The notes below the pieces were generated by a model. It made no database searches and had not been told where the DNA came from. It was given only the letters and a program-made list of their open reading frames with translations. This document shows, one piece after another, positions 1-11,459 of a stretch of DNA of 11,615 nucleotides (within the stretch, counting starts at the first letter, position 1; the number at the start of each line of letters is the position of its first letter). The stretch comes from an uncultured Coriobacteriia bacterium (GTDB lineage: Bacteria; Actinomycetota; Coriobacteriia; Coriobacteriales; QAMH01): contig CASDTD010000009.1 of the NCBI GenBank assembly GCA_949283445.1, positions 1 through 11,615 of the forward strand, written 5' to 3'. A program made the translations under genes and the position numbers.

Positions 1-484
1 CAGACGAGAAGTCGAACGAGGATAGATCCAGGCTCGTCAGTCTCTTACAGTCGGCGAACATGAGGAAGAAGTCGCGCACGGCGGATGTATCGAAGCCCGA
101 CAGGTCAACCCATTCAAGCTCTGCGCAGCCCCAGAACATCCCGCTCATGCGACGCACGCCGACCGTCTCGAACCGCGACAGGTCGAGCGACCTGAGCCTG
201 CGGCACCGGCTGAACATGTTCGCCATGGTGGCGGCAGACGAGGCATCGAATCCCGAAACATCGAGCCACGTGAGCTTCGAGCAGCTCGCGAACATCGACG
301 TGAAATCGCGAACTCGTGCGGTGTCGAACCCCGACACATCGATTGCGATGAGCTCGTCGCACCCGTTGAACATGTTGCTCATGTCGGTCACCTGTGATGT
401 GTCGAAATGGGAGACGTCCAGCGTCTGCAGCGACGAACACGCGCTGAACAGGTTCGCCATGTTCGTGACGCGCGACGTATCGAC
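1..484 (-). repeat. 26-residue (78-bp) DUF285 coding repeats
   Basis: Six complete units of exactly 26 codons start at residues 127, 153, 179, 205, 231 and 257 of the protein, with a seventh beginning at 283. There are no length changes. Each has an aromatic start, a D/E-T-S or variant turn, MF, a single Cys and L-D-[VL]-S. Confidence 0.85.
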
Positions 485-862
485 CAGCGAGAGACCCTCG
501 ATGCTCTGCAGCTCCCGGCAACCCGCAAACCAGCCCCGCATGCTGACCGGGGCAATGGGCGCCGTGACGAAGGCGCGCGCGACGCCGCTCCACGGCTGAG
601 CCCAGCGAACGGTGTTGGCCTCGGGCATCTCGGGATCGTCTGCGGGCTCGACGATGGACGGATACCCCGTTTCCGGAACCTTGAAAGGACCGGAGAGAAG
701 CTTGAGCCGATACAGCACGTTTCCCTCTGCATAGCTGGAACGCGCGCAGTCCCACGGCGTGGCGCCGAACACGACCAGCGCGGTGCAATCCTCGGCAAGC
801 GCCTCGCCGGTGGCCGGCTGCGTCTCGTAGATCGACGCGTATACCAAAGAGGACTTCGTCAT
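1..862 (-). CDS. BspA-like DUF285 repeat protein, cytoplasmic, 3' end cut by window edge
   Basis: The reading frame opens at ATG 862 and stays open through 287 codons to the left edge, so the C-terminus is missing. The start is supported by GAGAAAGGG about six bases upstream. The first ~105 residues have no signal peptide. They resemble the linker before the repeats of the kinase at 4335-6824: both have a VFG strand, a W/PW pair and then R-x-WFAGC followed by DTS. From residue 127 there are six full 26-residue units (F-D-T-S-x-V-x-x-M-x-x-MF-x-x-C-x-x-L-x-x-LDVSG) and the start of a seventh. This is the DUF285/BspA leucine-rich-like pattern, which forms an elongated scaffold. Known relatives are mostly surface proteins; this one looks intracellular. 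It is probably the last or a late gene of the phospho-signalling operon. Whether it also ends in a SEC-C motif cannot be seen. The family call is secure, the function unknown. Confidence 0.88.
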   Translation of the reverse strand, partial: MTKSSLVYASIYETQPATGEALAEDCTALVVFGATPWDCARSSYAEGNVLYRLKLLSGPFKVPETGYPSIVEPADDPEMPEANTVRWAQPWSGVARAFVTAPIAPVSMRGWFAGCRELQSIEGLSLVDTSRVTNMANLFSACSSLQTLDVSHFDTSQVTDMSNMFNGCDELIAIDVSGFDTARVRDFTSMFASCSKLTWLDVSGFDASSAATMANMFSRCRRLRSLDLSRFETVGVRRMSGMFWGCAELEWVDLSGFDTSAVRDFFLMFADCKRLTSLDLSSFDFSS

Positions 863-898
863 CGGATACCCTTTCTCGAAAAGCAGGCTCGGCGGGAA

Positions 899-931
899 CG
901 CCGCCTGAACGAATGCCCTGCCCAGGCGGCG
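899..931 (-). other. GC-rich intergenic hairpin between FHA gene and DUF285 gene
   Basis: The arms at 899-907 (CGCCGCCTG) and 923-931 (CAGGCGGCG) pair perfectly over nine bases around a 15-base loop. The hairpin lies nine bases after the stop codon of the FHA gene (941) and ahead of the ribosome binding site of the next gene (862). The only T-run (TTTT) comes about 20 bases later, so it does not look like a classic intrinsic terminator. It may stabilise or attenuate the mRNA between the two cistrons. Confidence 0.4.
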
Positions 932-940
932 CGAAGGGCT

Positions 941-2017
941 TTATGCCGCATCAAGGCAGACCGTGCGGCTTTCGGAGGATAGTAAGAAGGTGACCTGCCG
1001 GCGCGCGCCGGCGAACAGCAAGCCGTCACCGTCGCGCAGCACCACGGAGTCACCCCGCTCGAGCGTAGCCACGATCCGCCCGTCGCGCACCACCGTGGTG
1101 CCGTTGGAACCCAGCTGCTCGAAGCGCCATATCTCCTGCGCCGTATCGTAAGCAAGGCGCCCGTGCCTGCGGGACACCAGGTAGAAGTCCTCGGAATACG
1201 GCAGCATGATATCCGCCTGGTCGGAACCGTCGCCGCGCTTGACGCCAACCGTCATGCCATCGCGGAGCGGATAGCGCTTGTGACCGAACGCCAGGATGCC
1301 AAGGGGGGCTTCCGTCATGAGGCAGGGCGTGAGGGACGGTGCCTCGAGGACGTCGCGCTCTGCCATGGTTGCGGTGCCGGCTTCGGGCGCGGTGCCGATC
1401 ACGGGCGTGGCGCCGGCTTCTGCCACGTCCTCGACGACCGCCTTGCCGCTGAAGACGCCCTCGGGGTTGGCACCCGCGGCCGCGTTCCCGGCAGCCACGG
1501 CCGCATCGCCAGCGGCTTCGTCGTGCACATCCGCCTGCTCGTCCAGCGTATCGAAGTAAAAGGACTGCACAATGAGTTCGTCGTCGAGCAGCGCCATGGT
1601 CGGGCAGATGGTCACGCGCGGCGACAGGTCGCACCCGAGCTTGCGGTGAAGCTTGGCCTGGACCGCGCCCTCAATGCGCGTGCAAATCTCCGCGGTGCCG
1701 TGCCCGTAGTACATCCGCCACGCGGACACGGGAACCTGGATCTCGAAGCGGTCGGGGCACTGGATGCCCGTCACGCCACCGCCCCAGTCGACCAGCCCTC
1801 CCATCGCCTTGGACACGACCGCCTCGATGACCTCGCTCGGCGCGGGCGCGACCACCGAATCGCCGCTCAAGCCGGCAATCCACAGGCGGAGCTTGATGAT
1901 GGGATGAGCATACGAGATGGCGTCGAACAAGCGGGCGAATCTGCGCTCGACGGCGTCGAGCTTGGCGGCGGAGGAGGCATAGGCGCGGTTGGTGCGGCGG
2001 CTGTTGCTGTACTTCAT
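941..2017 (-). CDS. FHA-domain protein, FhaA-like (DUF3662-type N-terminus)
   Basis: 358 residues. The ATG at 2017 is preferred over the upstream ATG at 2089 because GAAAGGACG lies just before it. Residues ~15-157 (long helix, then CPDRFEIQVP, helix, and a strand-rich end around residues 134-155) resemble the DUF3662 domain found at the N-terminus of actinobacterial FhaA. This part of the call is moderate. Residues ~160-225 are an Ala/Gly/acidic linker. Residues ~245-347 are an FHA domain with SRRH (282-285) and SNGT (304-307), the core phospho-threonine-binding loops. The usual Arg of the G-R motif is replaced (VGVKR, 257-261), with Lys and Arg two to three places later. FHA domains bind phospho-threonine peptides, so this is a likely reader for the kinase encoded upstream. 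It follows the PP2C gene by 114 bases and precedes a DUF285 gene by 78. No membrane segment is seen. Confidence 0.88.
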   Translation of the reverse strand: MKYSNSRRTNRAYASSAAKLDAVERRFARLFDAISYAHPIIKLRLWIAGLSGDSVVAPAPSEVIEAVVSKAMGGLVDWGGGVTGIQCPDRFEIQVPVSAWRMYYGHGTAEICTRIEGAVQAKLHRKLGCDLSPRVTICPTMALLDDELIVQSFYFDTLDEQADVHDEAAGDAAVAAGNAAAGANPEGVFSGKAVVEDVAEAGATPVIGTAPEAGTATMAERDVLEAPSLTPCLMTEAPLGILAFGHKRYPLRDGMTVGVKRGDGSDQADIMLPYSEDFYLVSRRHGRLAYDTAQEIWRFEQLGSNGTTVVRDGRIVATLERGDSVVLRDGDGLLFAGARRQVTFLLSSESRTVCLDAA

Positions 2018-2056
2018 GGCGACGTCCTTTCTGGTTGGCTGCCGGTCGTCGAGGCT

Positions 2057-2090
2057 AGTGTGCCATCGCCCAATCGTCCCGTTGCGCAAC
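2057..2090 (-). promoter_or_regulatory. GTTGCGCAAC palindrome plus -10-like hexamer, site A
   Basis: The perfect 10-base palindrome GTTGCGCAAC (2081-2090) lies in the gap before the FhaA-like gene, centred 68 bases upstream of its ATG. Read on the minus strand, 18 bases follow it before CACACT (2062-2057), a weak -10-like hexamer. A further half-site CGCAAC lies at 2098-2103. This is site A of four similar sites in this cluster. The promoter part is weak; the palindrome is directly visible. Confidence 0.35.
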
Positions 2091-2131
2091 CTTGTCCCGC
2101 AACAACTCCTGGCAGCCCCGCACCAGCGCTG

Positions 2132-3067
2132 TCACCACGCCGAGATCCACGGTGTCTGCTGCCTGCTCGGCATCTCGCTGCGGCGCACGTCGATCACGAC
2201 TGCCGTCGCGTTGTCGCTCCGTTCGCCGCCCGCCTCTGCCGCCTCGAGGACGATACTGCGCGATGCCGTGCACGGCTCACCGTCGAGGGAGAGCAGCTCT
2301 GCTATGCGCGCCGTGGGCAGCTGATCCCACACGCCATCGCTGCACAGAAGAATCTTCATACCCTCCCGCATCGGCATGCTCGCTGTCTGCAAGGGGGCGT
2401 TGCCGCCGTTTCGCAGCACATGGTATCCCATCGCGGCGCGAAGCGCATTGCCCCCCGCACGGATGCGGCCCCGATCGTTGCCGAATACGTGCTCAAGCCC
2501 ACCGTCATCGCACAGGACGTAGGCGGTCGAATCGCCCATCCTGCCGAACACGAGCTCCCCCTCGCACGCAGCCACGGCGACCAGGGTTGCCCCGGACCCC
2601 TCGCCCAAACATGAGGACACCTTGCTCACGAATGCATCTACCGAGACGAACGCCTGATACATGCACCACTCGCCGAGCGCCCAGCGACCCGCCGCATCTC
2701 CGACAGCATCGAGGGCCGATTTCCATGCCTTGTCGAACGCCCCGCAGCACAACCTGGACATGACGTCGCCGAACGGCGCGCCGCCAATCCCGTCGCTCAA
2801 GCAAGCGCAGTCGTCCCCGTACCAAGCGCAGTCCTCGTTGCCCAAACGGGCGCCGCGCTCGCTTGAGGACGCCGCGACGAGCATGAAATCCCGCACATCT
2901 GAGATGTCCTCGACGGAATGGCGTTCGACCGGAGCTTCCTGGGAAGCCGCACCATGAGATAGCTCGTCAACGGGCAGGGCAAGGGACTCGGCGCTCATCT
3001 CGGAGCCCGAGCCGGCACCCAGGTCGAACCCGACACCACCCAGTTGCTTGTCTTGGTGGTTATGCAT
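2132..3067 (-). CDS. PP2C-family (PPM) serine/threonine phosphatase
   Basis: 311 residues from ATG 3067. That start is chosen over ATG 3145 because GAAAGGA sits seven bases before it. PP2C enzymes are metal-dependent phosphatases that remove phosphate from Ser/Thr. The ordered motifs are present: NED (77-79), SDGIGG (91-96, usually DGMGG), GSGATL (157-162, the G-[TS]-T/A-T element), GDS (178-180), SDG (243-245) and SDNAT (284-288). The metal-binding Asp residues are therefore intact (D92, D244, D285) and activity is expected. Residues 1-55 are a low-complexity, acidic extension with no known domain. There is no membrane segment. It lies between two FHA genes and two genes after the kinase, so it is the natural eraser for that kinase. 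Its length is slightly above the usual ~240 residues because of the N-terminal tail. Confidence 0.93.
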   Translation of the reverse strand: MHNHQDKQLGGVGFDLGAGSGSEMSAESLALPVDELSHGAASQEAPVERHSVEDISDVRDFMLVAASSSERGARLGNEDCAWYGDDCACLSDGIGGAPFGDVMSRLCCGAFDKAWKSALDAVGDAAGRWALGEWCMYQAFVSVDAFVSKVSSCLGEGSGATLVAVAACEGELVFGRMGDSTAYVLCDDGGLEHVFGNDRGRIRAGGNALRAAMGYHVLRNGGNAPLQTASMPMREGMKILLCSDGVWDQLPTARIAELLSLDGEPCTASRSIVLEAAEAGGERSDNATAVVIDVRRSEMPSRQQTPWISAW

Positions 3068-3089
3068 GGTCGTATCCTTTCGATTCGAC

Positions 3090-3103
3090 GGATCGTACGA
3101 CCC
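3090..3103. other. TCGTACGA-centred imperfect palindrome upstream of PP2C gene
   Basis: The bases from 3090 to 3103 form an imperfect inverted repeat around the 8-base core TCGTACGA (3093-3100), about 30 bases before the phosphatase ATG. It could be an operator or chance. It overlaps the region where transcript or leader would start if site B below is a promoter. Confidence 0.2.
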
Positions 3104-3104
3104 G

Positions 3105-3144
3105 ATTCTCCCTGTGCGAATCGTGCACGTTGTGCAACCGTGCA
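3105..3144 (-). promoter_or_regulatory. GTTGCACAAC inverted repeat nested in a longer palindrome, site B
   Basis: GTTGYRCAAC-type repeat at 3129-3138 (minus strand GTTGCACAAC) is nested inside outer arms TGCAC/GTGCA spanning 3124-3144. Together they make an imperfect 21-base dyad with one bulge. It is centred 66 bases upstream of the PP2C ATG, almost the same distance as site A from its gene. Eighteen bases further on the minus strand comes GAGAAT (3110-3105), matching TATAAT at four of six positions. It could act as an operator, or as an RNA hairpin in the intergenic leader. Confidence 0.35.
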
Positions 3145-3151
3145 TCTGCGT

Positions 3152-4258
3152 CTACCCGAGCACCTCGAACCGATAGTTCTCGTCGCGCATGCGGGATGCC
3201 CATGAAAAGTTGGCGGCACAGTAGTCGCCAGACAGCACACGGCGCGGAAAGATGCAGATAAGATCGCCATGGTGCAATTCGCAGCTATCACCCTGCAGCA
3301 GCACCGGCAACGCCTCAAGATCGGCCGGCGTCACCAGCGTGCCGTACCTGCTGCCCTGCCCGTCGGTGCCCACGTCGGCAATTGTCCAGCGCCCACAATC
3401 GAACGTGATCTCGCAGTGATGCCGCGAGGCGTACGCCGCACGGGTGACGACTGGGCAGCGCCCGCGGTCAGCGCACCATGCGCGATCCTCGCGACCGATA
3501 CGCGCGCCCTGCGTCTCCGAAAAGCGGTAGACCGTCACTGCTCGGGCGCCGTCGTCGAGCTGTGTTGAGTAGTCGAGCGGATCAGGGCCAGCCATCACGA
3601 CGGGCACCAGCTGGGCCTCCCGCAGCGCAGAATCTGTAACGACGGGGGCGATCCCCCCGACACTCACCGGCGTCTCGCGCAAGGCAAAGCCCATCTCCTG
3701 ACGGTTGTCGCGCGCACCAACCAAGCTCGCGTACACGCACGCCGCGATCACTCCGCGCTGCACGTCCTTGATGGTCTCAACGTTATCGGCGAGCACCATG
3801 TCCAGCCGTCCAGTCTCGTCATCAATGACCTGCCAAAAGCCTGGCAAATCGTAGGCGAGGCCATCGGCCTGGAGCGCCGCGCTGAACGCCGTGCGGAACG
3901 CATCGGTCCGGATGAAGTTCGCCTTGAGCTCTTTCCACAAGTCGATATCCAAAAAGATTCGACCCGTCGCTTCGAGGTCGTGCGCGACGTCGCGCGCATT
4001 CTCGTCCAACAGCTTAGCTACCCGCGAGCCGCGAGCCGTGCGGTCACGAACCAGATGCGCAAACGACGCGTACCTCGACGTCGCTGAAAAGCTCCGCTGT
4101 GCTCGAGCGAGCTCGTCTTGGGGCGACAAGCGGTAGACGCGGCTCGCGTCGTACTTCGATTTAACAGCGTTGTCATATGAGGCGAGCACCTGGCACTCGG
4201 GCACGCCCGAGAACTCCCTGCAAAACGCCTTGACGAACGTCTTGAGTGCTTCGGCCAT
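3152..4258 (-). CDS. FHA-domain protein with unrecognised helical N-terminal region
   Basis: 368 residues from ATG 4258, which follows GGAAGGA by seven bases; an ATG at 4294 has no such support. Residues 1-185 are mostly helical, with charged and aromatic residues. I do not recognise a family there. Residues ~240-345 are an FHA domain with IGR (254-256), SRHH (278-281) and, in the second binding loop, GSRYGT (302-307) where most members have N-G-T. The Arg and Ser/His residues that hold the phosphate are thus present, but the usual Asn is replaced by Tyr, so specificity or affinity may differ. It directly follows the kinase gene (76-base gap) and precedes the phosphatase (84-base gap), which suggests it reads a phospho-site made by that kinase. 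No signal peptide or membrane segment. The FHA call is strong; the role of the N-terminus is unknown. Confidence 0.85.
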   Translation of the reverse strand: MAEALKTFVKAFCREFSGVPECQVLASYDNAVKSKYDASRVYRLSPQDELARAQRSFSATSRYASFAHLVRDRTARGSRVAKLLDENARDVAHDLEATGRIFLDIDLWKELKANFIRTDAFRTAFSAALQADGLAYDLPGFWQVIDDETGRLDMVLADNVETIKDVQRGVIAACVYASLVGARDNRQEMGFALRETPVSVGGIAPVVTDSALREAQLVPVVMAGPDPLDYSTQLDDGARAVTVYRFSETQGARIGREDRAWCADRGRCPVVTRAAYASRHHCEITFDCGRWTIADVGTDGQGSRYGTLVTPADLEALPVLLQGDSCELHHGDLICIFPRRVLSGDYCAANFSWASRMRDENYRFEVLG

Positions 4259-4285
4259 AGCGCGATCCTTCCCTGAGACGACCTG

Positions 4286-4307
4286 CGACCGCAAGCGACG
4301 ACCGCAA
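4286..4307 (-). repeat. Tandem 9-base direct repeat before FHA gene
   Basis: The plus-strand word CGACCGCAA occurs at 4286-4294 and again at 4299-4307, thirteen bases apart. The minus strand reads TTGCGGTCG twice, and the second copy extends to GTTGCGG, half of the palindrome seen at sites A to D. It lies 28-49 bases before the ATG at 4258 and may be a degenerate version of the same regulatory element. Confidence 0.25.
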
Positions 4308-4334
4308 CCTCAATGAATGTATCTGACTCAGCCG

Positions 4335-6824
4335 TTAACGGTTCCTTCCGTGGCAGGTCTTGAATTTCTTCCCACTTCCGCAAGGACACGGATCATTGCG
4401 CCCCACATTAGCGTAAGAATCGGCATCGACCGCGGTATCGGCATACGAACGATCGACCACCTCGAAAAAGGGGCAGTCTTCGAACATGAGAGCGAGATCG
4501 GTGCCCTCAGGAATGGAAAACGGCCATCCCTTAAGGTTGTCAAGCGAGGTGCAATCTGCGAACATCCAGCTCATGTCGGAGGCAGACGAGGTGTCGAAGC
4601 CCGAGACGTCGAGGGATCTCAGGGAAGAGCAGCCTGCGAACATGCACGTGAAATCATCAACACGACGCGTATCAAAACGCGAGACATCGAGTTGCCTCAG
4701 ATTTCCGTCGTTGAAGAACATGTGACGCATGTTCGTGACGCGGGACGTGTCGAAGCCCGAGACGTCGAGCTTCCGCAGCGACGAGCAGCCGTTGAACATC
4801 GACATGAACGACTCTACATGCGGCGTCCTGAAGCCGGAGACGTCGAGCGCCTCGAGCCCGCCGCAGCCGTAGAACATCCAGCCCATGTCCGTGGCAGACG
4901 AGGTGTCGAACCCCGAGACGTCGAGCTCCCGCAGCGAGGAGCAGCCGCAGAACATCGACTTGAACGACTCGACGTGCGGCGTCCTGAAGCCGGAGACGTC
5001 GAGCCGTCGCAGCGAGGAGCAGTCGTTGAACATGAAGTCAAATGACTGGACCTTGTCCGTCTTGAAGCGTCCAACATCCAACACGACGAGCGCCGAGCAT
5101 CCATTGAACATGCTGGTCATGGAGATGACCTTCGATGTGTCGAAGCCACCCACGTTGATCCCCTGCAGCGCCGCGCACCCGTGGAACATGGCGTTCATGC
5201 GCTCGACCTGCGAGGTGTCGAACCCGAACACGTCCACGTATTCGAGCGACGAGCAATCGTGGAACATGAACTGCATGTCAGTCACCGCAGAGGTGTCCAG
5301 GCGGTCGATGTGCAGCAACTCGGTAAGGTTTTTGCACCCCGCAAACCACGCGCGCATCCTCGCAGGGCGAACCTTGGTCAAAAAGTCGACGATTTTGATA
5401 CTCTGCCAGGGAGAATCGCTTTGCCACTCCTTCACGCCCCACCCAGCGCAGCTCATGTCGTAGCACGGCCCCACGTGTTCGGCAGCGTACGTCACGCCGC
5501 GGTAACGGTATTCCCGAATGTCTACGGTTTGCTTGCTGTCGCCGAAGACGAGCAGGTCGGCCTCTGCGTCCGAAAACGGCGTGCCATCGGGGCCGGTCAG
5601 CTTGTACACGCCGGCGAGTACGACGCCCGACTCGACACGGGCACCCTGCTCGGAGCCGCCCCCATCCTCGAGCGTCGGCGTGACTTCGGGCACGTACGTC
5701 ATCTGCTGGAAACGCTCGTCATCCGTACCCTCCGCCACCCGCGTGAGCAGGCGACGAATATGGAGGCGATCGCGGTCGCGCGGATCCCAGGCGGTGCAGA
5801 GCGCGATCGCCTGGCCAAGCAGCAACTCGCGCTCCTCATTCATATAGTCTGGGAGGCTCAGGCTATCGCGCTTCTCCTCGATCAGTGCACGAAACGCATC
5901 GTCGTCATCGAGCTTCACCTCTCCACGCCAGAAGCCCGAAACATCGCCGCGCTTGGCGTACTGCACCGAATACCTCGGCGCCTTGCGCAGCGCGAGCTGG
6001 TACATCAGGGCGCCGAGCGACCAAAGATCGACCTCTGGGTCGTTGCGCAGGTCATACAGCTCATCGTGCTCGCGGCAGGCTTCCGAATCCCTCTCTCGCA
6101 GCGCGAACTTGGGGATTGACTCCGGGGCGCAGTACTCCACCATGCCCATACGCGGGTGCACGCCCGGCGCAAATGAAGGGGTTACGTCCTCGTCCGCATA
6201 CTTAGACTGGCCGAAGTCGATCAGATAGACCCAATCGAAGACCCCGTCATCCGAAGAGCGCCGCACGTACACGTTCCAAGGCGACAGGTCGGCATGGGCG
6301 ATCCCCCTCTTCTTCCCCTTCCCTTGCTCGGCAAGAAGGTCGAGTACATCCAGCATGCGCAGGCCGAACGTCGCGACCTGACCCGCTCCGAACGGCTCGT
6401 GATGTTTCTGCAAGACCTTATCGAGCCGCTCGGCGGGGCTGCCGACCTCCTCCATGAGGAAGGCGGGGCTGTACGTGACGCCGCCAGCCCCGTCGTCGAT
6501 CACGAGGAACCCGCACGCGTAGGCCTGCGGCACGTGGCCGTCGAGTCCGTCGAGCGCGCAGAGCATATCGTACTCATCGTATAGAGCGCCCCATTTCGCC
6601 TTGCGGCGGAGACGCTCGCCTGCCCGGTACGGCTCCGGAAAGCGCTTGAACACCTTGAGGATGCCGCCGACCGGCAGGCCGGGCTGGATCGGCACGCGGT
6701 AGATCGTGGCGTAGCCGCCCTCGTCAATCCGGCTTGCGGTCAGCGGATCGATGGACGACGAGCCGTTCTTTCCGACGACCGGCGCGTTATACCACACGGA
6801 CTCCAACCGGATATGCTCTCCCAT
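4335..6824 (-). CDS. Ser/Thr protein kinase - DUF285 repeat - SEC-C fusion protein
   Basis: 829 residues from ATG 6824, preceded by GGGGAGAAGGAC. Residues ~28-362 are a Hanks-type kinase: EGGYATIY (35-42, Gly loop), Lys57 (ILKVF), Glu84, HADLSPWN (177-184, HxDxxxxN catalytic loop), DFG (203-205), APE (233-235) and DLWSLG (266-271). All catalytic residues are present, so it should phosphorylate Ser/Thr. Thr215 in the activation segment is a possible autophosphorylation site. Residues ~400-508 are a linker shared with the protein at 1-862. Residues 509-768 are ten DUF285 units of exactly 26 residues. Residues 806-826 are a SEC-C motif (NDPCPCGSGKK, then C824-H825), a zinc-binding tail known from SecA and various cytosolic proteins. 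There is no membrane or PASTA segment, unlike PknB. It sits 36 bases after the DUF3825-FHA gene, so the two are probably co-transcribed. The repeats likely recognise a substrate or scaffold partner; that is inference. Confidence 0.93.
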   Translation of the reverse strand: MGEHIRLESVWYNAPVVGKNGSSSIDPLTASRIDEGGYATIYRVPIQPGLPVGGILKVFKRFPEPYRAGERLRRKAKWGALYDEYDMLCALDGLDGHVPQAYACGFLVIDDGAGGVTYSPAFLMEEVGSPAERLDKVLQKHHEPFGAGQVATFGLRMLDVLDLLAEQGKGKKRGIAHADLSPWNVYVRRSSDDGVFDWVYLIDFGQSKYADEDVTPSFAPGVHPRMGMVEYCAPESIPKFALRERDSEACREHDELYDLRNDPEVDLWSLGALMYQLALRKAPRYSVQYAKRGDVSGFWRGEVKLDDDDAFRALIEEKRDSLSLPDYMNEERELLLGQAIALCTAWDPRDRDRLHIRRLLTRVAEGTDDERFQQMTYVPEVTPTLEDGGGSEQGARVESGVVLAGVYKLTGPDGTPFSDAEADLLVFGDSKQTVDIREYRYRGVTYAAEHVGPCYDMSCAGWGVKEWQSDSPWQSIKIVDFLTKVRPARMRAWFAGCKNLTELLHIDRLDTSAVTDMQFMFHDCSSLEYVDVFGFDTSQVERMNAMFHGCAALQGINVGGFDTSKVISMTSMFNGCSALVVLDVGRFKTDKVQSFDFMFNDCSSLRRLDVSGFRTPHVESFKSMFCGCSSLRELDVSGFDTSSATDMGWMFYGCGGLEALDVSGFRTPHVESFMSMFNGCSSLRKLDVSGFDTSRVTNMRHMFFNDGNLRQLDVSRFDTRRVDDFTCMFAGCSSLRSLDVSGFDTSSASDMSWMFADCTSLDNLKGWPFSIPEGTDLALMFEDCPFFEVVDRSYADTAVDADSYANVGRNDPCPCGSGKKFKTCHGRNR
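4521..5300 (-). repeat. Ten tandem 26-residue (78-bp) DUF285 repeats within the kinase gene
   Basis: Units start at residues 509, 535, 561, 587, 613, 639, 665, 691, 717 and 743 with no indel, and a degenerate half-unit follows to ~791. Units 5 and 7 (FRTPHVESF) are nearly identical and are separated by a different unit, giving a 52-residue higher-order repeat. Units 6 and 10 also share long near-identical DNA (around 4893 and 4581, 312 bp apart). Confidence 0.92.
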
Positions 6825-6860
6825 GTCCTTCTCCCCTGCTCACATGCGAAGGTACCTGCG

Positions 6861-8561
6861 CTACACCATGAACTTCATCCACGCCGACTCGGCGAACGAC
6901 AGCTCGTCGCCAGAGGCGAGCTCGGTCTTGGAACCTTTGGTCAGCTTTTGAACAGACCCGTCGATATGGCGCACCTTGGTGCCGTTCACATCGTGCTGCT
7001 CATAGCTCCAGGTGCCGCCGGCGCACGTGAACGTGCCGTGCCGCTGTGACACGTACTTGAATGTACGTATCGAGGGCAGCACGATATCGGGCGCAGGGTC
7101 ACTGCTGCGACGCGCCACGCCGATCACGTCGCCGGGCCGCACCACGTACGTCCCCATCGCGGGATCCTCGGGCGCCAGGCGAGCCAAGCGCGAGGATGGG
7201 TCGTCTTGCTCATCATCGTTGCCCAGCTGCGGCGTCATAGACGGTGCGATCGTACTCGAGAAAGCCGAGTCACCGCCTGCCGGGGTAATCGAGCCCTCAG
7301 CGGCCACAGACGGGAAGGCCGACTCAATCCACCCCATGAGACCGTCGACGCGTTGGAGAGTCCGCGCGTGCTCGTACGCCATCTGCAGCGAGTAGATTGT
7401 CTCGCCCTCGTAGTAGCAATACGGCGCCCCGTCGCGCTGGACCTCGATCCTACGTGCTACCAGCACCGCGTCCACACGGTCGACATCGACCAAGCTCAGC
7501 GGCAGGCAGAAGAAGACCTCGCCGCCCTTGCTGCGCTTCGGATTCCACGACGGGATGGCGCTGGAGAACATGTAGCGCGCCCGCGTCTGCGCAAGCTCGC
7601 ACGCGTCACTCAGCGCCCGCCACAGCGATCGGCGCAGGCGCTCGTCGCCGTCCACGATTCCCTTCAAGGGCTCGAGGAGCTCCTGGCGTTTCTTGGGATC
7701 GGATTCGCGCTCCGCCTCATCGATGAGGGGCGCCGCTTCAGCAGAACCCGCGAACAGCACGCGCAGGGCGGAGGGTTCGACGCGGTTCCAGCGCAGCATC
7801 AGATGCTCGAAGTCCGGCACGAGCTCGAAGGAGCCGTCGTACACGACGTCGGTCAGGGTTCGGTAGTACACGGCTCGCTGGGGCATGTCGGTGCCGAGTG
7901 CGCGGACAAGGCGCTTGCCAGCATTGCCCGAGCCCTTAGTGCAGAACGACTTGACGATCCATTCGGCTTTAGCCTTGCTGTTCGGCTCACAGAAGCAGTA
8001 GATGTCCTCGAAGTTACGGTTGACCAAACCCGTGCAGAAGACCGCGAACTTGCCCTGGGCATCCTGTCCGTAGCGAATCTTCTCCTCGTCCAGCAGATGC
8101 AGAAACGTACCGTTGAGATACCAGCTGAGAATCTCATGGCCGCCGTCACGATCGGTAAACGACCACGGCTCGGGCAGAGCGAGGTCCATGAGCTGCTTAT
8201 ATGCGCTATCCGACACGTAGGCAAAATCCCACAGCCTCTGGTAGGGGCGTTGGGGACCGTCCTCGCGATCGACGCCGTAGGTGTAGTACGGCTTGGGATT
8301 CTTGCGCGCCGGCTTCTTGTTTGGGTCGTTCTGCTTGAGCTTCACCACAAGCACCTGCTCCTCGCCCGCTTGGTCGCGGACGGACACCTGGAAGCGGATG
8401 ATGTCGCGCATGCACTTGTAGGACTTATCGGCAAACGCCAGTTTCCAGCCCGCCTTGAGAAGGTCTTCCGCATCGGTTCCCCCCGTCGTCCTGTTGACCG
8501 CCTCACGGGCAGCATTGGTGATAGCGCAGAATTCGAACAGGTCGCCGGTGATGGTATCCAT
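6861..8561 (-). CDS. DUF3825-FHA fusion protein
   Basis: 566 residues from ATG 8561, with GGGAG nine bases upstream. Residues ~105-415 match the DUF3825 pattern in order: WYLNGTFLHLLDEEKI (147-162), FAVFCTGLVNRNFEDIYCF (172-190), LP/MP-x-x-A-x-Y (226-232), FEHLMLRW (251-258), a helix, a PSW segment (337-339), FCLPLSL (351-357), LVARR (367-371) and Y-E-G-x-T-I-Y-S-L-x-x-AY-x-x-AR (384-400). DUF3825 has no known biochemical role. Family members are often found with RNA-binding OST-HTH or cold-shock-like domains. Residues ~420-470 are a linker. Residues ~473-566 are a C-terminal FHA domain with SQRH (505-508) and NGT (526-528). The G-R position is G-V here, followed by RR. It lies 36 bases before the kinase gene and is likely its partner, tying a possibly RNA-linked module to phospho-threonine recognition. 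Confidence 0.87.
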   Translation of the reverse strand: MDTITGDLFEFCAITNAAREAVNRTTGGTDAEDLLKAGWKLAFADKSYKCMRDIIRFQVSVRDQAGEEQVLVVKLKQNDPNKKPARKNPKPYYTYGVDREDGPQRPYQRLWDFAYVSDSAYKQLMDLALPEPWSFTDRDGGHEILSWYLNGTFLHLLDEEKIRYGQDAQGKFAVFCTGLVNRNFEDIYCFCEPNSKAKAEWIVKSFCTKGSGNAGKRLVRALGTDMPQRAVYYRTLTDVVYDGSFELVPDFEHLMLRWNRVEPSALRVLFAGSAEAAPLIDEAERESDPKKRQELLEPLKGIVDGDERLRRSLWRALSDACELAQTRARYMFSSAIPSWNPKRSKGGEVFFCLPLSLVDVDRVDAVLVARRIEVQRDGAPYCYYEGETIYSLQMAYEHARTLQRVDGLMGWIESAFPSVAAEGSITPAGGDSAFSSTIAPSMTPQLGNDDEQDDPSSRLARLAPEDPAMGTYVVRPGDVIGVARRSSDPAPDIVLPSIRTFKYVSQRHGTFTCAGGTWSYEQHDVNGTKVRHIDGSVQKLTKGSKTELASGDELSFAESAWMKFMV

Positions 8562-8585
8562 GTCATCAGTCTCCCATGTCAGTGC

Positions 8586-8600
8586 TTATAAAAAATGATA
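8586..8600 (-). promoter_or_regulatory. AT-rich -10-like element before DUF3825-FHA gene
   Basis: In this GC-rich gap, the minus strand has TATCAT (8600-8595, five of six matches to TATAAT), a run of T, then TTATAA (8591-8586). A start near 8588 would give a leader of about 27 bases to the ATG at 8561. No good -35 hexamer is found at 16-18 bases. A weak hairpin just upstream (CCGTCC/GGATGG on the minus strand) followed by the T-run could instead make this a poor terminator for the DUF285 gene at 8801-9940. Confidence 0.28.
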
Positions 8601-8706
8601 CCGCCATCCAGCGCTCGTCGGACGGTGCCGGCGAGGCATTCCTCAGACGTTAATTGGCGGTTGCAAGGTGCTCGCAGGCGCTCCTCCCGTCGTGGTTGGC
8701 AAGGCT

Positions 8707-8740
8707 ACGATATCGCCGGGCGGCGCCCCTGTTGCGCAAC
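8707..8740 (-). promoter_or_regulatory. GTTGCGCAAC palindrome plus -10-like hexamer, site C
   Basis: A second exact copy of the palindrome GTTGCGCAAC lies at 8731-8740, in the 239-base gap between the DUF285 gene and the DUF3825-FHA gene. On the minus strand an 18-base spacer leads to TATCGT (8712-8707, four of six matches to TATAAT). Two exact copies of one 10-mer plus two variants, all in gaps of one cluster, are more than expected by chance. The distance to the next ATG (8561) is long, about 174 bases. Apart from this and the AT-rich element, the gap shows GC-rich inverted repeats but no gene. Confidence 0.35.
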
Positions 8741-8800
8741 ACGAAGGGCGCGAGCGCTGCGGCGGGAAGCGAGCGCCGCGGCAGCGTGACACCGCAAGCG

Positions 8801-9940
8801 CTACGGCAAGGGTGCCGGGCAACCCTCGCGAGCTCGATGGGCGTCCTCCGCCTGCGTCAGGTCAACGAAGCCGTCGGGGACATGCGCCAAGCTCTTGCAG
8901 CCGAAGAACAGCCGCGCCGCGTTTCGGATGTTCTCCATGCCACGTCCCTCGTGCGCGATGCGCTCCAGTGCCGTGCAGCCGTCGAACATGCCCTGTGCGC
9001 GCAAAACGCCAGAGAGATCCATGGTGCCGAACGCCACCTCGCGCAGCAAGGCGCACCCGTCGAACATATAGCTCTCGTCAATGAGTTCATGGGTGCCCCA
9101 GCCCGCCAGGCTCGCACGTTCGATCGGCGTATAGGAGAACATGCCGCGCGCCGCCTGCAGGCGAGGCATGCGCCACATGGACACATCGAGTTGCGAGAGG
9201 GACGAACAGCCGCTGAACAGGAAGTTCGCCTCGCGGACGCTCGCGGTGTCCCACAACGCGCAATCGAGCTGCGACAGGCGCGCGCAAAAGCGGAACATGC
9301 CGGAAAGGTTTTCGATACGACCGGTCTGCAGGCCATCGACGCCCGTGATGCGCTCCAGGTTGCAGCAGCCATAGAACATCCGCTCCGCCGTGACGAGCCG
9401 CCCGGTTCGCGCGCCGACGAACGAGACCTCGTCGAGCCAGGTGCACATCCGAAAGAAATCGGACGCGTCCTCGAGGTTCGGAGCACCCAGCGCCGCGAAA
9501 TCGAACGAGTGCAGTCTACGGCATCCGCGAAACATGCCGCCCGCCTCGCGCAGCTCAGGAAACCCCTGCGCGGGAAGGACGACCTCGCGCAGCTCGCGGC
9601 AATCTTGGAACATGCCCCATGCGCTGCGCACGCGCGAGGTATCGAATGCCGAAAGATCGATACGGCGCAACTTGGAGCAACCCGCGAACATCTCGCTCGC
9701 GTCCTCGGCTCCCGCACTGCCATCGGGGCACGTCAAGTTTTCCAGACCGTCTACGGCGGTCAGGTGGAGGAAACCGGCGAACAATCGATCCAAGCGCTCC
9801 ACCTGCGCACCGGACTGCACGCTCACCGCGTGGATTTGGTCGGCGATCTGCTGCCAGGGAACCTCGTCCGCACACGGGACGAAGCCGTCGACCACCAGCG
9901 TTCCGCCGTCGTCCAGATACCAACCTTCGTCGCTACGCAT
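8801..9940 (-). CDS. Stand-alone DUF285/BspA-like repeat protein
   Basis: 379 residues if translation starts at ATG 9940, which has GAGG six bases upstream and opens directly into the family's usual first strand (GWYLDDGGTLVVDG, then PW at 28-29). An alternative ATG at 10060 has AGGAG four bases before it and would add 40 residues of Arg/Cys/Trp-rich sequence that looks non-coding. Residues ~48-360 hold about eleven degenerate DUF285-like units, marked by MF-x-x-C or LF-x-x-C (84-88, 110-114, 136-140, 188-192, 215-219, 241-245, 292-296, 318-322, 344-348). They are less regular than in the other two repeat proteins, with DTS turns in only some units. There is no signal peptide, anchor or SEC-C. 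It is the first gene of the minus-strand cluster, separated from the next by 239 bases, so co-transcription is less certain than for the others. Confidence 0.82.
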   Translation of the reverse strand: MRSDEGWYLDDGGTLVVDGFVPCADEVPWQQIADQIHAVSVQSGAQVERLDRLFAGFLHLTAVDGLENLTCPDGSAGAEDASEMFAGCSKLRRIDLSAFDTSRVRSAWGMFQDCRELREVVLPAQGFPELREAGGMFRGCRRLHSFDFAALGAPNLEDASDFFRMCTWLDEVSFVGARTGRLVTAERMFYGCCNLERITGVDGLQTGRIENLSGMFRFCARLSQLDCALWDTASVREANFLFSGCSSLSQLDVSMWRMPRLQAARGMFSYTPIERASLAGWGTHELIDESYMFDGCALLREVAFGTMDLSGVLRAQGMFDGCTALERIAHEGRGMENIRNAARLFFGCKSLAHVPDGFVDLTQAEDAHRAREGCPAPLP

Positions 9941-10148: not shown

Positions 10149-10184
10149 AAGCGGGCTCCATCTCATGTGAAACGAAAGGCTCCC

Positions 10185-11459
10185 ATGGACGCGTTCATGC
10201 GTTTTGCTCTCAACGTGCGCGAAATCGTGCGAAAAGACCCCGTGCTCGTCGTGGCCATCGTGCTGGCGATCATCTCGTGCGCCGCCGTCCCGCCCGACGC
10301 TGCCTATGCGGAATACGTCGACCTTCGCACCATCGGCATGCTCTTCAGCCTCATGACGATCATGGCCGGGCTCTCGCGTCTCGGCGTGTTCCGCATCGCC
10401 TGCCGGCATCTCCTAAGCGCCGTACGCGGACCCCGACGCCTCGCGCTCGCACTCACGCTCCTCGCCTTCTTCTCGAGCATGCTCATCACGAACGACGTCG
10501 CCCTCGTGACGTTCGTCCCCTTCGCCCTGCTGGCGCTGCGCACGCTCGATTCCCCACGCCATGCATGCTTCACCGTGGTCATGATGACCATCGCCGCGAA
10601 CCTCGGCAGCATGCTCACGCCCATCGGCAACCCGCAGAACCTTTACCTCTACAGCACATCGCACATGGCTCTCACCGACTTCCTGCTGCTCATGCTGCCT
10701 TATGCCGCAGCAGCGCTCGTGCTGCTCGTGGGCGCGATCGCGTTCTTTGGCCGAATTCCAGAGCACGCGAAGGAGAAGGCGGCGCGCAGCGTGGACGCGG
10801 GCAACCCGGCCAGCAGCAGCGAAGACGGCAGTGCGGACAGCCCGGCAACTTGCGGTGAAGCCGACAACGCTGCTAGCGCCACGGACGCCAACGAAACCCC
10901 GCAGCTCGCCAGCGATGCCGACGACCCCGCACCCTCCCCGCTCCGCGTGCTCCCCTGGGCGGCACTTTTCGTACTCGCCCTGCTTTCCGTCGCGCATATC
11001 CTCCCCTACCAGGCAATCGTCGCGGTAACCATCGTCGTGGCGCTTGCCGCAGACCGCCGCGCGCTTCTGCATGTGGACTACGCGCTGCTGTTCACGTTCA
11101 TCGCGTTCTTCGTCTTCGTGGGCAACGTCGGCCGCATCGAGGTGGTGAGCGCCGCGCTTGCCCAGTTCATCGATGGTCACGAGCTCGCCGTCTCCGTCAT
11201 CGCGAGCCAAGTGCTCTCGAATGTGCCTGCCGCCATCTTGCTCTCCGGCTTCACGTCGAACTTCGCTGCGCTCATCGTGGGCACGAACCTCGGCGGCCTG
11301 GGTACGCTCATCGCGTCCATGGCGAGCCTCATCTCGTATAAACAGGTAGCACTCGTGCTCCCGCGCGAGAAGGGCCGCTATTTCATGCTGTTCACCGTGT
11401 GGAACATCGCGTTCCTCGCCGTACTTGCGGTGCTTGCCGCCGTGTTGGAGGTGCTATGA
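10185..11459 (+). CDS. SLC13/ArsB-NhaD-type (CitMHS-like) permease
   Basis: 424 residues from ATG 10185. The frame is open far upstream (from 9390), but GAAAGG at 10174-10179 and the onset of hydrophobic sequence fix this start. It is an integral membrane protein of the ion-transporter superfamily that includes SLC13, ArsB and NhaD. Two halves are visible: helices at ~18-36, 48-67, 84-119, 126-145 and 163-188, then ~255-290, 297-316, 334-356, 361-386 and 399-422. The first half has SSMLITNDVALVTF (97-110) and TPIGNPQNLYL (145-155), the second has SNVPAAILLS (345-354) and GTNLGGLGT (366-374). These are the paired re-entrant Asn-Pro/Gly loops that bind substrate. A hydrophilic, Asp/Ala/Ser-rich loop of about 60 residues (194-253) joins the halves. 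The substrate cannot be deduced; a dicarboxylate or other anion is likely by family. It overlaps the next gene by four bases, so the two are translationally coupled. Confidence 0.88.
   Translation: MDAFMRFALNVREIVRKDPVLVVAIVLAIISCAAVPPDAAYAEYVDLRTIGMLFSLMTIMAGLSRLGVFRIACRHLLSAVRGPRRLALALTLLAFFSSMLITNDVALVTFVPFALLALRTLDSPRHACFTVVMMTIAANLGSMLTPIGNPQNLYLYSTSHMALTDFLLLMLPYAAAALVLLVGAIAFFGRIPEHAKEKAARSVDAGNPASSSEDGSADSPATCGEADNAASATDANETPQLASDADDPAPSPLRVLPWAALFVLALLSVAHILPYQAIVAVTIVVALAADRRALLHVDYALLFTFIAFFVFVGNVGRIEVVSAALAQFIDGHELAVSVIASQVLSNVPAAILLSGFTSNFAALIVGTNLGGLGTLIASMASLISYKQVALVLPREKGRYFMLFTVWNIAFLAVLAVLAAVLEVL

Follow-up and report, generated by a model that had tools for sequence, protein, structure and literature searches.

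A soluble repeat-kinase, PP2C and FHA gene cluster in a Coriobacteriia bacterium: a possible accessory relative of the actinobacterial cell-wall locus

Actinobacteria carry a conserved locus of fhaA, fhaB, pstP, rodA, pbpA, pknA and pknB (PMC6554272), and the FhaA protein of this locus has been proposed to act on wall-precursor supply via phosphorylated substrates of PknB (PMC11898655). Repeats of the DUF285/PARCEL type have been described separately, in a paper that stresses membrane-targeted proteins and, as far as that account goes, leaves undecided whether the untargeted open reading frames are cytoplasmic products or pseudogenes (PMC2996958). Here, we analyse a stretch of 11,615 nucleotides (the window) from an uncultured Coriobacteriia bacterium, in which seven genes on one strand (g1 to g7) encode a Ser/Thr kinase with a DUF285 array, a PP2C-type phosphatase, three FHA proteins and two free DUF285 proteins. 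The nearest genome, G001, which shares 75% of sampled words with the window, stands in for the host genome. We give about even weight to the reading in which this cluster is accessory and a diverged relative of the fhaA-fhaB-pstP-rodA-pbpA-pknB locus that was made into a cytoplasmic circuit around an array-bearing kinase, with envelope growth as the most probable output. The features of the window are as follows.

2..862, minus strand: g1, free DUF285 protein with a kinase-like linker; extends past the window edge (344 residues in G001)
941..2089, minus strand: g2, FhaA-like protein (predicted FhaA N-domain, linker and FHA); open reading frame of 382 residues
2132..3145, minus strand: g3, soluble PP2C-type phosphatase of the island type; open reading frame of 337 residues, PP2C_2 with an expect value (E) of 1.1e-10
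3152..4294, minus strand: g4, FHA protein with an uncharacterised N-terminal region; open reading frame of 380 residues, Pfam FHA E 9.7e-8
4335..6824, minus strand: g5, Ser/Thr kinase, linker, DUF285 array and SEC-C; 829 residues
4338..4415, minus strand: SEC-C metal-binding motif at the C-terminus of g5; E 1.8e-10
4455..5372, minus strand: DUF285 array of g5, approximately residues 485-790; the number of 26-residue units varies among alleles
6861..8561, minus strand: g6, DUF3825-FHA protein; 566 residues
8801..10060, minus strand: g7, free DUF285/PARCEL repeat protein; 419 residues, Pfam DUF285 E 3.1e-28
10167..11459, plus strand: CitMHS-type transporter (CitMHS E 1.8e-37), flanking host chromosome outside the module

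Judged by its sequence, g5 is a Hanks-type kinase with intact motifs: the catalytic Lys, Asp and DFG motifs are all present (ILKVF at residue 55, HADLSPWNV at 177 and IDFGQ at 202), and Pfam assigns Pkinase (E 1.1e-8), DUF285 (E 2.8e-54) and SEC-C to it. Both a PASTA domain and a hydrophobic segment are absent from g5, which is thus not a membrane-bound PASTA kinase. Its repeats are tandem 25-26 residue units of the TIGR02167 type (curated score 30), for which g5 scores 264.9 bits, g1 169 bits and g7 73.6 bits, and searches of solved structures by sequence matched g5 to SEC-C, LRR and kinase entries. The g1 protein resembles a kinase-free copy of the g5 linker and array, and g7 is 95% identical to its G001 copy and 45% identical to the copy in G002, a genome of the same genus. 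All components of the cluster look soluble.

The structure model of g2 shows an FhaA-type fold, so that g2 is predicted to combine an N-terminal FhaA domain with FHA. Profile comparison is consistent with this assignment when taken in steps, the step from the window-type N-domain to those of other islands and the step from these to canonical FhaA each having a probability of about 94. The FHA domains of g2 and g6 also resemble the GarA and OdhI structures; sequence searches against solved structures gave nothing useful for g2 or for the g6 alignment. The FhaB of the canonical locus is a small FHA protein; g4 has a long N-terminal region, and the FhaB model scores 14.9 bits on it against a cut-off of 125. 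For g6, fold searches were dominated by FHA matches and hardly probed the DUF3825 part. Used alone, g6 found no locus in the named genomes, and the g6 alignment A1 found one, a G002 contig; two distant relatives of DUF3825 (23-24% identical) lie on viral contigs. Matches to a g6 profile are common in the class: 126 of 396 Coriobacteriia genomes have them, and many cover just the DUF3825 part, some just the FHA part.

The phosphatase places a PP2C in the cluster, but one of a type apart from canonical PP2C and with no membrane segment. It matches the Stp1/IreP model at E 2.4e-17, under the cut-off of that model. In the PP2C tree, seven cluster and nine canonical sequences split cleanly, with support of 100/100, and the split was kept when the eighth cluster sequence, the PP2C of G275, was added; this one falls on the island side, with the longest branch among the island rows. 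The distribution of this type is patchy. A profile built for it matched 7 of the 396 Coriobacteriia genomes with E between 2.4e-134 and 2.4e-59, an eighth more weakly (1.2e-36) and the next at 1.5e-28, and in a phylum-wide draw of 396 genomes the threshold of 1e-30 was passed by G001 and two weak matches (G664, E 2.7e-34; G517, E 3.4e-31).

The G001 cluster has the gene set and order of the window. Its kinase is interrupted by a run of unknown bases in the assembly, and an apparent frameshift at this point was therefore rejected. On a separate contig, G001 carries the canonical set, with a PASTA kinase, a RodA-PbpA fusion, a PP2C and FhaA together, and the window cluster is therefore a second, accessory set. 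The RodA-PbpA of G001 is a single fused open frame of 971 residues (L084, 5981-8893). SEDS frames as long as a RodA-PbpA fusion (965-1060 residues) were found in 11 of the 12 Coriobacteriia genomes searched, the PbpA part being checked in G001; the exception was G002, which is 76% complete.

The cluster is an accessory island at a defined site. It is present in two of five Enorma genomes, G001 and G002. In G001 its neighbours are the CitMHS gene on one side and, on the other, an integrase element of approximately 21.5 kb in a tRNA-Met gene (L013, L014 and L143, 23240 to about 44886); the element ends in tRNA-Met, followed by a GlmS-type gene, and a tRNA-end sequence is repeated at both of its ends, flanking the element and not the island. 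In the corresponding stretch of G004 the island is absent, and a single open frame stands between CitMHS and tRNA-Met, with the GlmS-type gene beyond it. The island is also absent from G003, where one or two other open frames come after CitMHS, together with an element that shares 95.6% identity over 5 kb with the element beside the G001 island. Within the window itself, the likely start of g2 is residue 25 of its frame (base 2017), that of g4 is Met13 (base 4258) by alignment of homologues, and the in-frame ATG at base 3067 was taken as the start of g3 for the PP2C alignment. No sigma-70-like promoter was found by our search, and terminator-like sites did not exceed the level expected by chance.

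Related clusters in other genomes suggest a link of this gene set to envelope growth. The G002 cluster has the same set with two kinases and an additional membrane protein, a gene that the window does not have. This protein has no Pfam match; its profile alignment to SEDS proteins spans 225 columns (probability 90, E 1.6e-6), and three other membrane proteins score probabilities of 0.1-0.2. It is probably SEDS-like, a putative SEDS relic within the genus. The G382 cluster consists of a kinase-DUF6273, PP2C, FhaA-like and FHA proteins and a SEDS-PBP fusion, and that of G236 combines three Sel1-repeat kinases with PP2C, FHA proteins and a SEDS-PBP fusion. Thus, three related clusters contain SEDS-PBP or SEDS-like genes. 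The three G236 kinases stand side by side, with the Sel1 repeats C-terminal (L126, 10926-16756). In G157 the cluster comprises a kinase-DUF285, PP2C, an FhaA-like protein, an Hsp70-like protein, a coiled-coil-like protein and a g4-like FHA protein; the Hsp70-like ATPase and the coiled-coil-like protein, which has a weak GrpE match, lie between the FhaA-like and FHA genes (L060, 10270-12965). The clusters of G238 and G271 consist of a kinase-LRR_5, PP2C and DUF3825-FHA, with an FhaA-like gene approximately 4 kb away; in these kinases (L055, L056) the BspA-type LRR_5 repeats are followed by what appears by eye to be a transmembrane segment. A doubtful cluster in G275 (L127, 3583-16069) encodes a kinase-TPR protein of 1222 residues, which AAA_16 matches below threshold, along with a second kinase, an AAA protein and an integrase-type transposase; a further protein there matches Mob_Pre, also below threshold. 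This gene set looks more like a conflict system, and no FHA gene was seen in it; the Mob_Pre-like protein is FHA-like by eye, yet Pfam gives no FHA.

The sequence-only reading of this DNA had described a soluble kinase/PP2C/FHA module centred on a repeat protein, and this description was largely right, a second Enorma genome having the whole module together. The refuting condition set for it, gene neighbours that vary freely between related genomes, gave a mixed outcome: the neighbours are kept in both island-bearing Enorma genomes, and farther away kinase, PP2C and FHA recur in seven of eight clusters, but the other genes change, as does the second half of the kinase, which differs by genome (DUF285, BspA-LRR, Sel1, DUF6273, TPR). 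What the data do not support is the inference of a self-contained module unrelated to the actinobacterial cell-wall system, given the FhaA-like g2 and the SEDS-PBP or SEDS-like genes in the clusters of three other genomes.

The repeat array is the variable part of g5. A search with g5 returned 51 proteins, and array length was compared among 42 full-length alleles, including that of the window, which are 96-100% identical to g5 over residues 1-390. Their lengths are 829 (18 alleles), 855 (6), 881 (1), 907 (14), 933 (1) and 1246 residues (2). These differ by whole 26-residue units, except in the 1246-residue alleles, where an interruption sized like a second linker is followed by a second array. 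A second DUF285 array past a linker-sized gap was seen in P0100, P0101 and P0136, kinase alleles or relatives of 1246 and 1392 residues. Early units are largely common to the alleles and later units are exchanged; array length differs even between two alleles with identical residues 1-484. In the window, the array DNA contains a 78-base tandem repeat at 4752-5068. Within the 829-residue class (18 alleles), polymorphism affects 8 of 110 scaffold positions, compared with 65 of 176 other repeat positions (and 52 of 390 in the kinase domain), a comparison that is not independent of the fold, since scaffold positions were picked by conservation between units. Because polymorphism avoids the scaffold positions, the fold of the array appears to be under selection. 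Strong point-level hypervariability of the whole array was ruled out, diversity being 0.047 in the array versus 0.028 in the kinase, a 1.7-fold difference (0.038 versus 0.025 among the 15 closest alleles); in 59 alleles of g6 it is 0.012 in the first 410 residues and 0.022 in FHA. Repeat number is weakly clustered on the kinase tree, with 18 changes for seven length classes (minimum 6) against a mean of 21.2 after shuffling, and 11 of 200 shuffles were as low as the observed value. This tree, of 43 rows including a more distant relative of 714 residues outside the 42 alleles (P0146), has few forks with support, and errors in repeat number may arise when repeats are assembled from metagenomes.

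In the reading that we favour, the LRR-like DUF285/PARCEL array inside the kinase would replace the membrane-spanning PASTA sensor and offer a variable surface by which a protein ligand or substrate is picked out. Ligand binding would set g5 to phosphorylate threonines of the ligand or of the cluster proteins, and g2, g4 and g6 could then dock on these phosphothreonines and pass the output on, with g3 resetting the circuit, so that writing, reading and erasing would all take place in the cytoplasm. The free DUF285 proteins might share their surface with the kinase array and serve as substrate adaptors, competitors or decoys. Given an FhaA-like reader here and SEDS genes in related clusters, the output would most likely be control of envelope growth via the FhaA-like protein, to which g6 might add a second, DUF3825 arm.

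Several results weigh against this reading. Ligand binding, substrate choice, the direction of signalling and the output are all things that we infer. Pfam FhaA_N gives no match to g2 at E 1 or better. Compared directly by profile, the window-type N-domain and canonical FhaA agree weakly (probability 0.6 from two sequences and 30 from three), and the FhaA_N search of G001 matched the canonical copy alone. That search, whose genomes did not include G236 and G275, gave no match in G002 and G003 and found a second FhaA_N copy in G193, G223 and G310, where the island-type PP2C is missing, so the two are not always together. We know of no counterpart of g4 or g6 in the canonical locus, and the Pfam scan of the window proteins revealed no wall-synthesis enzyme. 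The identity of g5 to canonical PknB is 19-23% (E 2.2e-5 to 1e-3), which does not establish a kinase descent shared with the locus. The PP2C trees demonstrate separation from canonical PP2C and not origin, because their branches are very long and they contain no other PP2C families.

The same components could also form an intracellular recognition receptor, in which a PARCEL-array kinase diversified among strains by unit gain, unit loss and cassette exchange would be wired through FhaA-type readers, such that ligand recognition stops or redirects envelope growth. We consider this unlikely. If it were true, the repeat-sensor kinases with DUF285, BspA-LRR, Sel1 or TPR would constitute a receptor family grown from the cell-wall locus.

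We regard a conflict role of the cluster as possible but improbable; in this account the array would recognise an invader protein, for example from a phage, the kinase would fire and the FHA proteins, chiefly DUF3825, would halt growth or attack nucleic acid. The differences between alleles in array unit number and at non-scaffold positions would fit such a role, as would the accessory nature of the island, which G004 and G003 lack next to the same CitMHS gene, and the G275 gene set, with its TPR kinase and sub-threshold AAA_16 match and its sub-threshold Mob_Pre protein near the transposase. Downstream of the G002 island (L016, 3438-10126) there are a PIN-domain gene, an MmeI-like type IIG restriction gene, the latter a few kb from the island, and an AAA-ATPase_like gene. 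However, the five neighbour proteins checked at the G157 and G271 islands are a Y-family polymerase and products of sugar or carbon metabolism genes, the Pfam scan of the seven cluster proteins revealed neither a nuclease nor a toxin family, and DUF3825 has no known function. For six of the seven proteins no PADLOC family matched up to E 0.1, and the PADLOC matches of g5 are mostly partial ones to kinase models, plus SEC-C, the best being MAD6 with 44.8 bits.

A stress or metabolism switch of the GarA/OdhI type, in which the FHA proteins would directly hold and release enzymes or RNA-linked factors and have no envelope link, is similarly doubtful: the soluble look of all components, the GarA and OdhI matches of the g2 and g6 FHA domains and the Hsp70-like gene within the G157 gene run speak for it, but the predicted FhaA-type N-domain of g2 and the SEDS genes in related clusters speak against it, and a housekeeping role would be unexpected for a cluster present in 7 or 8 of 396 genomes. 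Least probable is that the repeats are passengers, that is, mobile coding repeats that moved into the kinase and the genes around it and vary by neutral slippage, because although PARCELs are described as horizontally spread and shuffled within genomes (PMC2996958) and 78-base tandem repeats favour slippage, polymorphism avoids the scaffold positions, and LRR_5 or Sel1 at the same post-kinase place in other clusters fits a functional slot.

Our findings suggest that a conserved actinobacterial growth-control circuit was copied, detached from the membrane and given exchangeable repeat sensors. They also give the DUF285/PARCEL repeats, whose membrane-untargeted copies had been left unexplained in the description of these elements (PMC2996958), a testable cytoplasmic role, and the variable array offers a natural set of mutants for finding the ligand. 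Our literature search, with most subscription journals outside its scope, returned no matching paper on combined kinase/PP2C/FHA systems and no occurrence of the word DUF3825.

Among known systems, the TerY-P triads place a vWA-domain TerY protein beside a PP2C and a kinase; the Pfam scan found no vWA family in the seven proteins, and no dedicated TerY-P test was made. The type VI secretion circuit, PpkA-PppA-TagH, likewise unites kinase, PP2C and FHA, and was rejected because TagH scores 15 bits against a cut-off of 120.25 and no secretion family occurs among the window proteins, the G001 flanks having been inspected mostly by eye. The PADLOC anti-phage kinase systems, including MADS, share kinase-domain similarity with g5 and were set aside, since the MAD6 match is partial (residues 134-291, approximately 160 residues) and no partner model matched. 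Compared with the PARCEL/DUF285 (TIGR02167) proteins, the window has the identical repeat type, which varies in copy number and is spread between organisms (PMC2996958), but the window joins it to a kinase whose motifs are intact and which lacks a membrane segment. The closest system remains the actinobacterial pstP locus, with which the cluster shares the combination of kinase, PP2C and FhaA-type reader and, in the three relatives, SEDS-PBP or SEDS-like genes. It differs from that locus in having a soluble DUF285-array kinase in place of a membrane PASTA kinase, a soluble PP2C and additional FHA proteins, DUF3825-FHA included, in the absence of rodA-pbpA products among the window proteins, and in that a cluster of the window type exists alongside the canonical set in G001.

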